Shown: one piece after another, positions 23,911-46,170 of the stretch
Position numbering within the stretch: position 1 is the stretch's first letter
Layout: each line of letters starts with the position of its first letter
Source of the DNA: an uncultured Lachnoclostridium sp.
GTDB taxonomy: Bacteria; Bacillota; Clostridia; Lachnospirales; Lachnospiraceae
Direction of reading: 5' to 3'
Assembly (NCBI GenBank): GCA_946499505.1
Contig: CAMMSL010000010.1
Span: forward strand, 25,817 to 89,816
DNA length: 64,000 nucleotides
The notes under the pieces: model-generated
Told to the model about the DNA's origin: nothing
The model's input: the letters and a program-made list of their open reading frames with translations, nothing else
Databases searched by the model: none
Position numbers and translations under genes: made by a program

Positions 23911-24786
23911 ATGCCAAAAAAGAAGAAAATCTTACTGAGGGCATACATCGCATTTGCTGCGTTGTTTGTCATCGCACCTGCATCTAATGCAATGCACATC
24001 ATGGAGGGCTACCTGCCTGCAGGCTACTGTGTGGCGTGGGGAGTCATCTGCCTGCCGTTTCTGATCGCAGGATTTATTTCATTGAAGAAAAAAGTAAAAG
24101 AGAACAGAAGGAATCTTACCTTGATCGCCATGTCAGGGGCCTTTATCTTCGTGATCTCATCGCTGAAGATTCCGTCCGTGACAGGAAGCTGCTCCCATAT
24201 GACGGGGACAGGGCTGGGTGCAATTCTCTTCGGCCCTGCAGCAGTCAGTGTGCTGGGGATTATTGTTTTGATCTTCCAGGCTGTACTGCTGGCTCATGGA
24301 GGCCTGACAACGCTGGGGGCTAATACATTTTCCATGGCGATCGCAGGTCCGCTCGTTTCCTTTGGTATTTATAAACTGTGCCGGGCCGCGAAAGTCAATC
24401 GCCGTGTGGGCGTTTTCCTGGCGGCTTTTTTAGGAGATATTTTTACATACTGTGTGACAAGTATACAGCTGGCCCTGGCATACCCGTCCGAGGCGGGCGG
24501 TGTGGCGGCATCGGCAGTGAAGTTTTTGGGCGTGTTCGCTCCAACGCAGCTTCCCCTTGCTGTTATTGAGGGGATTCTCACAGTCGTTATTGTGATCGGC
24601 CTTGAGACTTATGCAAAACCGGAACTTAAGAGTATCGGTTTCTTGCGCGATACGCCCGGCAAGCAGCCGCCATGCTTGCATGAGCGGATATTTGCCGGGC
24701 AACGGACAGCGAACGACTCATGTCGTGAGCTGAGCGAAGTATCGCGTGATCGGATAGGGGAGGCGAAGCATCCCCTATCCGATTGA
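23911..24786 (+). CDS. cbiM: Cobalt ECF transporter substrate-binding subunit CbiM with repeat-derived tail
   Basis: The S-component of the CbiMNQO cobalt importer. MHIMEGYLP near residue 28 supplies the histidine that helps bind cobalt, and six or seven membrane helices follow ([18 protein letters not shown] is characteristic). The family core ends about residue 245 at [12 protein letters not shown]. The last 46 residues (from about 246) are charged, unlike the family, and are encoded by a palindromic DNA element. I chose ATG 23911 because AAAAGGAG is 6-8 bases upstream; earlier in-frame starts would run through the riboswitch. First gene of the B12 operon. Confidence 0.92.
24646..24783. repeat. 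Structured palindromic element forming the 3' end of cbiM
   Basis: CGCGATAC (24646-24653) pairs with GTATCGCG (24739-24746) and encloses two arms. Arm A is GCCCGGCAA (24654-24662) with TTGCCGGGC (24692-24700), tipped by CATGCTTGCATG (24671-24682). Arm B is a small hairpin ACGAC-TCAT-GTCGT with CAGC/GCTG outside. A second hairpin, ATCGGATAGGGG (24749-24760) with CCCCTATCCGAT (24772-24783), follows. The arm-A tip and overall plan recur at 45184-45369. Confidence 0.75.
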
Positions 24787-44609: not shown

Positions 44610-44713
44610 TTATCCGGAGACAAGTTTTCCTGGGATTGAAGAATAAGAAAAAAGTATGAAGGAAATTAGTATGCGTCGTTTTAATGTATCAGGACAGAAA
44701 TCGGAGTATAGAG

Positions 44714-45208
44714 ATGGAGATCAGAAGTTACAGACAGGAAGATATAAAAGTGATTGCCGAACTCTTTTATAATACAGTACATAGTGTAAATGCGGCAGAC
44801 TATACAGATGAACAGCTTGATGCGTGGGCCGATGGAAATATAAATCTGGAGGCGTGGGACAGATCATTTCGGGAGCATATGACTTTGGTGGCAGTAATGG
44901 CTTCAGATGAAGAGGAGGGCAACGGACAGATTGTGGGTTTTGCGGACATGGACAGTACAGGATATCTCGACCGGCTGTATGTACACAAAGATTTTCAGCG
45001 GCATGGGATTGCGGCAGAGCTTTGCCGCAGGCTGGAACAGGCGGTGGATGTAGAAGCGATTACAACACATGCATCGATCACGGCGAGGCCCTTTTTTGAA
45101 AAGAGAGGATATAAGGTCGTGAGGGAGCAGCAGGTGGAGAGAAAAGGAGTACTGTTGACAAATTATGTGATGAAAAAAGGCTGCAGTTCACACCGCGCTC
45201 AGGTATAG
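44714..45208 (+). CDS. GNAT family N-acetyltransferase with repeat-derived C-terminus
   Basis: A 164-residue acetyltransferase of the YafP/ElaA-like type. The acetyl-CoA loop is VHKDFQRHGIAAELCRRLE near residues 93-111, followed by HASITARPFFEKRGYKVV. It transfers acetyl from acetyl-CoA to an unknown amine. The fold ends about residue 155 at LTNYVMKK; the last eight residues are encoded by the palindromic element at 45184-45369. ATG 44714 has GGAG 7 bases upstream. Confidence 0.88.
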   Translation: MEIRSYRQEDIKVIAELFYNTVHSVNAADYTDEQLDAWADGNINLEAWDRSFREHMTLVAVMASDEEEGNGQIVGFADMDSTGYLDRLYVHKDFQRHGIAAELCRRLEQAVDVEAITTHASITARPFFEKRGYKVVREQQVERKGVLLTNYVMKKGCSSHRAQV

Positions 45209-45369
45209 GAGAATGTAGCGTCATGCTTGCATGTAAGAAGCATTCTCCTATACCTGAGGGCGAGTGGAACTCGCACCCCCGCCCACATAAGCAGTCTTAG
45301 CACGTAGTGCGGAACTGAAGCGCGTCAGCGCGACGAGTGCGCATGTGGGCAGGGGGTAGGTGTGAACTG
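45184..45369. repeat. 186-bp structured palindromic element
   Basis: Ends are perfect 11-bp inverted repeats: CAGTTCACACC (45184-45194) and GGTGTGAACTG (45359-45369). Inside, arm A is an 18-bp perfect stem, 45198-45215 with 45241-45258, tipped by CATGCTTGCATG (45222-45233). Next is a hairpin GCGAGT-GGA-ACTCGC (45260-45274), then a branched arm closed by ACCCCC/GGGGGT and GCCCACAT/ATGTGGGC (45275-45357, one bulged A). It starts within the end of the GNAT gene. Confidence 0.85.
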
Positions 45370-45396
45370 TACCTGAAGAAGAGAAAGGAGCAAGTG

Positions 45397-46170
45397 ATGC
45401 CTGTGGAGACAATATTTCAAAGAGCGGATATATCCGCTCCGGCACTGATCAATCCGGCAGATACGACAGAGAAGAGAAAAGATTTCCCAAAGATCTGTGT
45501 GTCTACATTTTCTGACAATATTATCCGTAAATTTGCGTCTCTGGAAAACGTGCATCAGATAGCGGAGTTATATACTGCAAACGGCGCAATGCCAGTCTAT
45601 AAGATCCGCTATAAAGATACTGATATCGCATTTTTCCAGTCAAGAGTAGGAGCTCCTGCCTGTGTCGTCGGCTTCGAGAAAATCGTGGCGATGGGTGCGG
45701 AGCGGTTTGTCCTGTTTGGTTCCTGCGGCGTACTTGATGACGAGAAAGTGCAGGGGAAGATCATCATTCCCGTCTCGGCGGTACGGGACGAGGGAACGAG
45801 CTATCATTACGCGGCGCCATCAGCGGAGATAAAAGCAGATAAACGGTATGTGGATATACTGGAGCGCGTATTAAAAAAATGCGGCTGTCCGTATGTTAAG
45901 GGCAGGACGTGGACGACAGACGGCATTTACAGAGAAACTCTTTCAATGATACAGGAGAGAAAGAAACAGGGATGCCTTGCAGTAGAGATGGAATGCGCGT
46001 CCATGATTGCAGCTTCGCAATACAGGAAGATCCCTTTTATCCAGTTCCTGTATGGCGCGGACAGCGTTGGAACAGACACATGGGAGATCAGAGATCTGCT
46101 GCAGTACGGACTGGATGGTGCGGATAAATATATGGCACTGGCTTTTGAGTGCGGACTTGCACTGATGTGA
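45397..46170 (+). CDS. Nucleoside phosphorylase family protein
   Basis: A 257-residue enzyme of the purine nucleoside/uridine phosphorylase family. The phosphate and ribose pocket segments are present: FFQSRVGAPACVVGFEKIVAMG, RFVLFGSCGVLD, and the nucleoside motif CLAVEMECASM near residue 195, with DGIYRET before it. It likely cleaves a nucleoside with phosphate for salvage; the base is unknown. AAAGGAG (45384-45390) supports ATG 45397; longer readings run into the palindromic element. Confidence 0.88.
   Translation: MPVETIFQRADISAPALINPADTTEKRKDFPKICVSTFSDNIIRKFASLENVHQIAELYTANGAMPVYKIRYKDTDIAFFQSRVGAPACVVGFEKIVAMGAERFVLFGSCGVLDDEKVQGKIIIPVSAVRDEGTSYHYAAPSAEIKADKRYVDILERVLKKCGCPYVKGRTWTTDGIYRETLSMIQERKKQGCLAVEMECASMIAASQYRKIPFIQFLYGADSVGTDTWEIRDLLQYGLDGADKYMALAFECGLALM

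Follow-up and report, generated by a model that had tools for sequence, protein, structure and literature searches.

The element and its neighbouring genes

The window, i.e., the whole stretch of 64,000 nucleotides that was analysed, carries a short and strongly folded element between a gene for a GNAT acetyltransferase and a gene of the phosphorylase superfamily. The genes and the parts of the element are the following:

44684–45208, + strand: GNAT acetyltransferase gene (PF13673), with its stop codon within arm 1
45180–45373, + strand: whole element, a 194-bp MITE of the GTWACNRTTCAS/8-bp-duplication type (covariance model R1)
45180–45194, + strand: left terminal inverted repeat, decayed, GCTGCAGTTCACACC versus canonical GTTACAGTTCACACC (alignment of copies)
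45194–45324, + strand: sub-threshold match to Rfam RF01699, Clostridiales-1 RNA (30.7 bits, E 3e-5, cut-off 48)
45198–45258, + strand: arm 1, an 18-bp perfect stem (45198–45215 with 45241–45258) capped by the tip (sequence and fold; the stem covaries between copies)
45222–45233, + strand: tip CATGCTTGCATG, a G(CUUG)C tetraloop hairpin common to several element families
45260–45274, + strand: small hairpin GCGAGTGGAACTCGC
45276–45356, + strand: arm 2, branched, with an ATAAGCA/TGCGCAT internal loop and inner hairpins (45299–45312 and 45320–45331)
45359–45373, + strand: right terminal inverted repeat, decayed, GGTGTGAACTGTACC (alignment of copies)
45397–46170, + strand: phosphorylase-superfamily gene (PF01048), directly downstream, start taken as the ATG at 45397

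A sequence-only reading of this DNA had described perfect 11-bp ends, an 18-bp arm, a small hairpin and a branched arm, all of which were found in the sequence. The closing ends pair perfectly over 11 bp (CAGTTCACACC, 45184–45194, with GGTGTGAACTG, 45359–45369), and the branched part pairs up to 45356, just inside the right closing end at 45359. Of the extent proposed there, 45184–45369, the core stood while the ends had to be moved outwards by a few bases, as the alignment to relatives set the limits at 45180 and 45373. Over their full length the terminal inverted repeats of the window copy (GCTGCAGTTCACACC, GGTGTGAACTGTACC) are imperfect, with the decay located at the outer bases. As had been noticed, the element starts within the last codons of the GNAT gene, which ends inside the left arm; from its other end to the start of the phosphorylase gene there is a gap of 23 bp.

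The RNA fold of the window element reaches −108.2 kcal/mol versus −62.2 kcal/mol (sd 4.3) in 200 dinucleotide shuffles (z −10.8), none of which folds as well. An Rfam search over the window at the gathering threshold gave no match for the element. A role as intrinsic terminator or promoter was considered and rejected, the site counts around the window copy being unsupportive: two promoter-like sites were found in 1 kb versus 1.8 expected, which is chance level, one of them within the element on the + strand, and a single, weak terminator-like site lies at the left end of the element in minus orientation (45196–45183; 0.6 expected).

Copies, distribution and age of the insertion

DNA similarity searches in 21 genomes yielded 24 matches in genome G045 and 13 in genome G011, of which seven and two, respectively, are near full length. 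The aligned copies exhibit the canonical ends GTTACAGTTCACAC and GTGTGAACTGTAAC, with whole elements being about 195 bp long, and include shorter forms consisting of arm 1 alone, of arm 2 alone or of elements with internal deletions. The 3′ half of the small hairpin, GAACTCGTAAC, is at the same time the right end of two shorter relatives with arm 1 only (L071 and L076), beside which duplications were judged by eye. A covariance model, R1, was made from an alignment of 24 copies and its structure; as the window element is one of these 24 sequences, it is recovered with a high score (G000:C10:70996-71189, 180.5 bits, E 6.8e-37). The genome of the window contains two full copies by DNA similarity and R1, the second one at G000:C4:106985-107179. 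The genome-wide covariance search that had been proposed as a check thus revealed further copies, with R1 matching 37 of the 58 genus genomes. Among 250 genomes spread over the family, 46 were matched at E <= 1e-4, with 10 candidates scored per genome. The plasmid DNA similarity search gave only six short matches with E values of 0.8 or worse.

The flanks of the window copy agree at only five of eight bases, and the same insertion is present in three related species, in two of them with internal deletions, which indicates that the window copy is old. The more distant genomes G032 and G021 are without the element, yet a right-end-like stretch is kept there and both may represent deletions; a clean empty site at the window locus was seen in neither of them. 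In sum, the element at 45180–45373 is an old representative of a small mobile DNA element that occurs in many gut Lachnospiraceae.

Evidence for transposition

A tolerant end pattern applied to all loci collected gave 65 end pairs at distances of 80–330 bp, some of which are not real elements. Among the 64 pairs with flanks, 23 had 8-bp flank repeats with at least seven of eight bases identical, versus a mean of 0.47 and a maximum of three in 200 shuffles. For duplication lengths of 4, 5, 6, 7 and 9 bp there were 6, 4, 4, 3 and 1 near-matches, respectively, all inside the shuffle range, and for 10 and 11 bp there were none. In a stricter scan of all loci collected, exact 8-bp repeats adjoined GTWAC ends in 25 cases and in no case at a 3-base offset, the respective elements being 18 to about 200 bp long.

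The properties of a MITE are thus found at the level of the family: the elements are bounded by terminal inverted repeats (GTWACNRTTCAS ends, decayed at the outer bases in the window copy), they are flanked by target-site duplications (reduced to 5/8 at the window copy itself) and they are short, non-coding and multi-copy (194 bp; 37/58 genus genomes). This bears out the earlier suggestion of a small mobile element, as inverted ends and 8-bp target duplications occur together.

The smallest forms, remnants of 18 and 27 bp, consist of two fused ends with exact or near-exact 8-bp duplications and look like scars of palindrome deletion, or they may be the smallest MITEs. Such remnants sit in genome G123 (L372 125-142 and 2721-2738, L369, L370). 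Further MITEs with the same ends, 141–142 bp in length, lack the tip and have quite different hairpins (L360, L371 and L372 2812, in G123), and two of these tip-less 142-bp copies with other hairpins have exact duplications. In two further copies, L059 129-323 (G045:C49) and L104, the tip of arm 1 is inverted (CAAG loop) with the outer stems being intact, which suggests hairpin-mediated inversion. Given the duplications at the two tip-less copies and the two copies with inverted tips, the tip is not needed for mobility.

Search for a mobilising transposase

IS66 genes were found in one of five genomes and IS256 genes in three of five. Nine loci with such genes were scanned for the element ends at up to two mismatches, which gave scattered matches and no flanking pair, and six of the nine, scanned for any inverted repeats, showed none like the element ends. 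IS66 and IS256 were rejected as mobilisers, since the element ends do not flank their genes at these nine loci. A search for long elements (700–7000 bp) with such ends led to eleven candidate pairs, and in the six that were translated no transposase was recognised by eye. Likewise, no autonomous copy was seen in 20 stretches chosen from 119 end matches around unpaired ends in genome G123; these stretches yielded the tip-less MITEs and the remnants. A 3.27-kb segment in L170 (1666-4935) has perfect 14-bp inverted ends (GTTACGGTACCCCG) and three sizeable ORFs; a clear target duplication is not apparent there.

Conserved fold and covariation

Covariation in the stems, which had been named as a point to look for, is present. 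The alignment comprised 24 copies with the end type of the window element and less than 93% identity, taken from 32 hand-listed copies. RNAalifold predicted 35 pairs, 24 of them with double changes. In this alignment 93.0% of the cells were paired versus 76.3% in the shuffled control, and the covariation score was 0.465 versus 0.154. Sliding the partners by 1–3 columns lowered the pairing to 25–46%. As the inverted repeat of the transposon itself forms helix 1, covariation there is uninformative with regard to RNA. This reservation does not apply to the helices of the two arms, though palindrome correction could still act on arm 1.

A hairpin tip shared by unrelated stems

The 12-mer CATGCTTGCATG had been noticed at the tips of two arms in the window, and it is exact at both places. 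Within the window alone this is weak evidence, as eight of 100 shuffles contain at least two matches with up to one mismatch. Within the genus 214 occurrences of the 12-mer were counted, spread over 49 of 58 genomes, versus a single occurrence of a reversed control string, which may be rare for other reasons. The 18-mer tip GTCATGCTTGCATGTAAG is present in at least 120 stretches of genome_contigs, and among the matches listed most titles name Lachnospiraceae, a genus of that family or Eubacteriales. Also among the matches listed are one outside Lachnospiraceae, in Pseudalkalibacillus caeni (L160 7640-7657), where the 18-mer sits on a good long stem, and one labelled Riflebacteria (L127), which has no stem and is probably a chance match. 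A scan of viral_contigs for the 18-mer gave no match.

The left arms of the 113 tips that have flanks form 31 clusters, between which 4.5 of 16 bases are alike, a value near chance. Nevertheless, in 26 of the 31 clusters the representative left arm pairs better with its natural right arm than with 99% of swapped arms, and in five it does not exceed this line. For the 12-mer set of the genus, with 35 tips in 15 clusters, eight clusters beat 99% of the swaps and seven do not. A swap control with same-family partners mixed in placed 57 of 113 tips above the 99% line and is superseded by the per-cluster control. Most loci were retrieved by searching for the tip itself, so that its invariance among them is a given; the search does not dictate that the tip usually sits on a long stem or that these stems are unrelated in sequence. 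The idea of a family with conserved loops and variable stems is borne out, as the tips are conserved and the stems vary and covary. G(CUUG)C is an RNA-stable tetraloop, a further hint at a function as RNA. At two loci tip elements are arranged in tandem (L117 586-971 and L175 4184-4389), with periods of 184 and 188 bp.

The window does not, as had been assumed, hold two copies of one kind. The copy at 24671 represents a second family, whose ends are GCGATA and which has the tip in common with the studied element and little else. Members of this family are characterised by GCGCGATA..TATCGC ends and an adjoining GATCGGATAGGGG hairpin, often just after a T-run, and were found at window positions 24645-24785 as well as in L001 (two copies), L004, L011, L023 and L027. 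The window element at 24671 gave no Rfam match of note and none to RF01699. A further similarity drawn between the two structures, GAGCTGAGCG to GAACTGAAGCG, is too short to carry meaning alone. One of the L001 copies lies, as judged by eye, between a thiamine-riboswitch-like leader and a thiM-like gene, and its tip arm is duplicated in tandem.

Relationship to Clostridiales-1 RNA

The window element stays below the 48 bits set for RF01699; it has an arm with the GCUUGC tip of this family. Its ends and duplication (GTWAC, 8 bp) differ from those of RF01699 (mostly GATGCC/GACATC, 7 bp). Both have a closing stem, a long arm 1 with the GCUUGC tip and a further arm with a AGNNCGUAGNNCGGA-type hairpin, and the RF01699 copies examined contain an ATGAGCA/TGCGAAT pair resembling arm 2 of the window element. 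Arm 1 with the GCTTGC tip and the internal loop of arm 2 (approximately ATRAGCA with TGCGMAT) are thus common to both.

RF01699 matches occur in 42 of the 58 genus genomes, in 26 of them above threshold, and in genome G018 there are at least 40 (40 candidates scored). In 18 tip loci, above-threshold matches cover five of 21 tips (three in L117, one each in L123 and L161). A further two matches are located in L121 away from tips. A set of 18 RF01699 copies was studied for boundaries, 16 from the genus matches and two above-threshold copies from the genome of the window. All are 193–196 bp long, their ends being mostly GATGCC..GACATC, and ten of them have exact 7-bp duplications (shuffled mean 0.91, maximum five in 500). 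In a looser set from other loci, three of 11 had exact 7-bp duplications versus 0.5 expected with swapped flanks (maximum two). By virtue of this uniform length, these ends and these duplications, Clostridiales-1 RNA is itself a MITE in the genomes examined, with ends and duplication unlike those of the window element.

The arm-2 motif, the pattern for which was drawn up after such sequences had been viewed, is located 3′ of the tip in 45 of 131 cases, 5′ in three and antisense in none. Sorted by left end, it accompanies 26 of 45 tips with GTWAC, nine of 11 with GATTACAGTG (Clostridiales-1-like) and ten of 45 unclassified ones, and it is missing from two other tip-bearing classes (0/22 with GAGCMGTGC, 0/8 with GCGATA), so that the tip is more widely shared than arm 2. 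As the window element resembles RF01699, whose copies are MITEs with other ends, one RNA-like architecture is carried on two end types. There seems to be a close link between the RF01699 RNAs and a group of mobile elements.

Clostridiales-1 is classed as "Gene; sRNA" in Rfam, and the table of Weinberg et al. (2010; PMC2864571) gives it as a probable RNA that is not cis-regulatory. In the main text of that article the string "mobile" is absent, and "transpos" occurs once, within the name of another motif.

Possible roles of the folded interior

With simple open reading frames of at least 90 codons taken as genes, 57 of 77 sites located between co-directional genes have the tip on the sense strand. 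After removal of sites sharing a neighbour protein the count is 51 of 69 (p 9e-5). This preference hints at a role in RNA. One such role would be that of a cis-acting mRNA element, i.e., a transcribed hairpin which is cut by RNase III or blocks 3′ exonucleases and thereby tunes both flanking genes. Its position between co-directional genes and its long perfect stem would fit. So would the proximity of stop codons: in 23 of 65 deduplicated sites the sense upstream gene stops no more than 50 nt from the tip, versus two of 38 for an antisense neighbour, whose near end is its start. The asymmetry would, however, also be expected if insertions at gene starts were simply harmful, and the specific tip is left unexplained, as any hairpin would do. 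MITEs that fold in mRNA and draw RNases are known in other bacteria, with CE, ERIC and BIME as precedents in PMC3049150. Taken together, a cis-acting mRNA element of this kind appears possible, if doubtful.

The interior could also be without purpose. In a plain selfish MITE the hairpins would be passive, their stems being corrected by template switching during replication and the tip being kept by descent only. Inverted tips (L059, L104) and the 18- and 27-bp remnants with duplications suggest hairpin-mediated DNA changes, and two tip-less copies were mobile. The ratio of G.U to A.C pairs also bears on this question, since selection of the tip strand as RNA should produce a G.U excess. In arm 1 the ratio was 85 to 40, versus 5 to 6 at the transposon ends; with one arm per stem cluster it was 22 to 14 (p 0.24) and not significant, which is in line with passive hairpins. 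As a sign of RNA selection, the excess may at most be called suggestive. On the other hand, passive hairpins would not lead one to expect the preference for the sense strand, a tip that recurs in elements differing in their ends and in duplication length or an arm-2 motif common to two end types. We regard the plain selfish MITE as rather unlikely.

A stand-alone small RNA gene that was multiplied by recombination instead of transposition would agree with the Rfam class and with the "probable RNA" in the table of PMC2864571, whereas both element types have inverted ends and target duplications, the latter being sufficient to dismiss it as the sole explanation, and the promoter-like sites around the window copy are at chance level, which renders it very improbable. 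Least of all do we expect a REP-like or IS200/IS605-like element processed as single-stranded DNA, which had been among the suggestions on account of strong hairpins with conserved tips, as transposition of the IS200/IS605 and REP types is not known to leave a target duplication while clear duplications of 8 bp and 7 bp are present here. A REP/RAYT assignment is disfavoured for the same reason, and a retron-like anatomy was dropped on account of the target duplications.

A mobile element with an RNA-like interior

The inverted ends, the 8-bp duplications in relatives, the occurrence in many genomes, the covarying hairpins, the shared tip and the preference for the sense strand between co-directional genes are all established by the data. 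Regarding the 194-bp element as a whole, we consider it likely, with good confidence, that it is an old MITE insertion which was moved by a DDE transposase acting in trans at its GTWACNRTTCAS ends and whose interior is an RNA module related to RF01699. The choice between structured RNA and mobile element looks like a false one, the evidence favouring both.

Most likely, a DDE-type transposase would recognise the GTWACNRTTCAS (GTWAC) ends in trans and move the element. The interior would be a structured RNA module related to RF01699, which may be kept since it is useful or tolerated in the transcript, and the G(CUUG)C hairpin may be the part that is read by a factor of the host or the element. 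In the window the element would form the intergenic segment of a GNAT–phosphorylase mRNA, provide the stop codon of the GNAT gene and fold there, where it would, as far as can be predicted from the DNA, most likely act as a roadblock or processing site. A bolder proposal, which we put forward as a speculation and hold to be improbable, is that a fixed G(CUUG)C RNA is a cargo that at least two transposition systems (with 7-bp and 8-bp duplications) have taken up across the Lachnospiraceae, the RNA itself serving the element or the host, for example via a conserved RNA-binding factor.

Comparison with known systems and significance

Both MITEs and Clostridiales-1 as a probable RNA (table in PMC2864571) are already known. 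The prokaryotic MITEs of a review (PMC10969869) share inverted ends, target duplications, the lack of coding capacity and a stable folded transcript with the elements described here; unlike in MITEs in general, the interior is here shared with an Rfam RNA family and carried on two end types. The main text of this review contains no word beginning with Clostrid-, Firmicutes or Lachno-. The BOX elements of Streptococcus pneumoniae are likewise MITE-like, modular, strongly folded and intergenic; compared by description only, they differ in being built of boxA, boxB and boxC modules with boxB in tandem, and a tip common to unrelated families is not described in the accessible part of the source (PMC3049150). 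REP elements and their RAYT transposases (PMC2817692, PMC3733652) are similar in having palindromic repeats with conserved tags, whereas the present elements have target duplications and carry the conserved tag at the tip. Among the papers listed in a survey of the openly accessible literature, none gives an account of Clostridiales-1 as a mobile element or of such MITEs in Lachnospiraceae.

Within the genomes examined, RF01699, an Rfam RNA listed since 2010 without known function, thus proves to be a transposable element, surrounded by a large circle of relatives that have the same hairpin tip on unrelated stems. Its covariation and its status as a "gene" need a different reading. In addition, it becomes a testable question whether the RNA structures of bacterial MITEs are purposeful or mere by-products of palindromes, and the natural insertions, solo arms, tip-less copies and remnants offer a test set for it. 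If the proposal of an RNA cargo were true, these elements would represent a class of transposable elements with an RNA, and not a gene, as their passenger.
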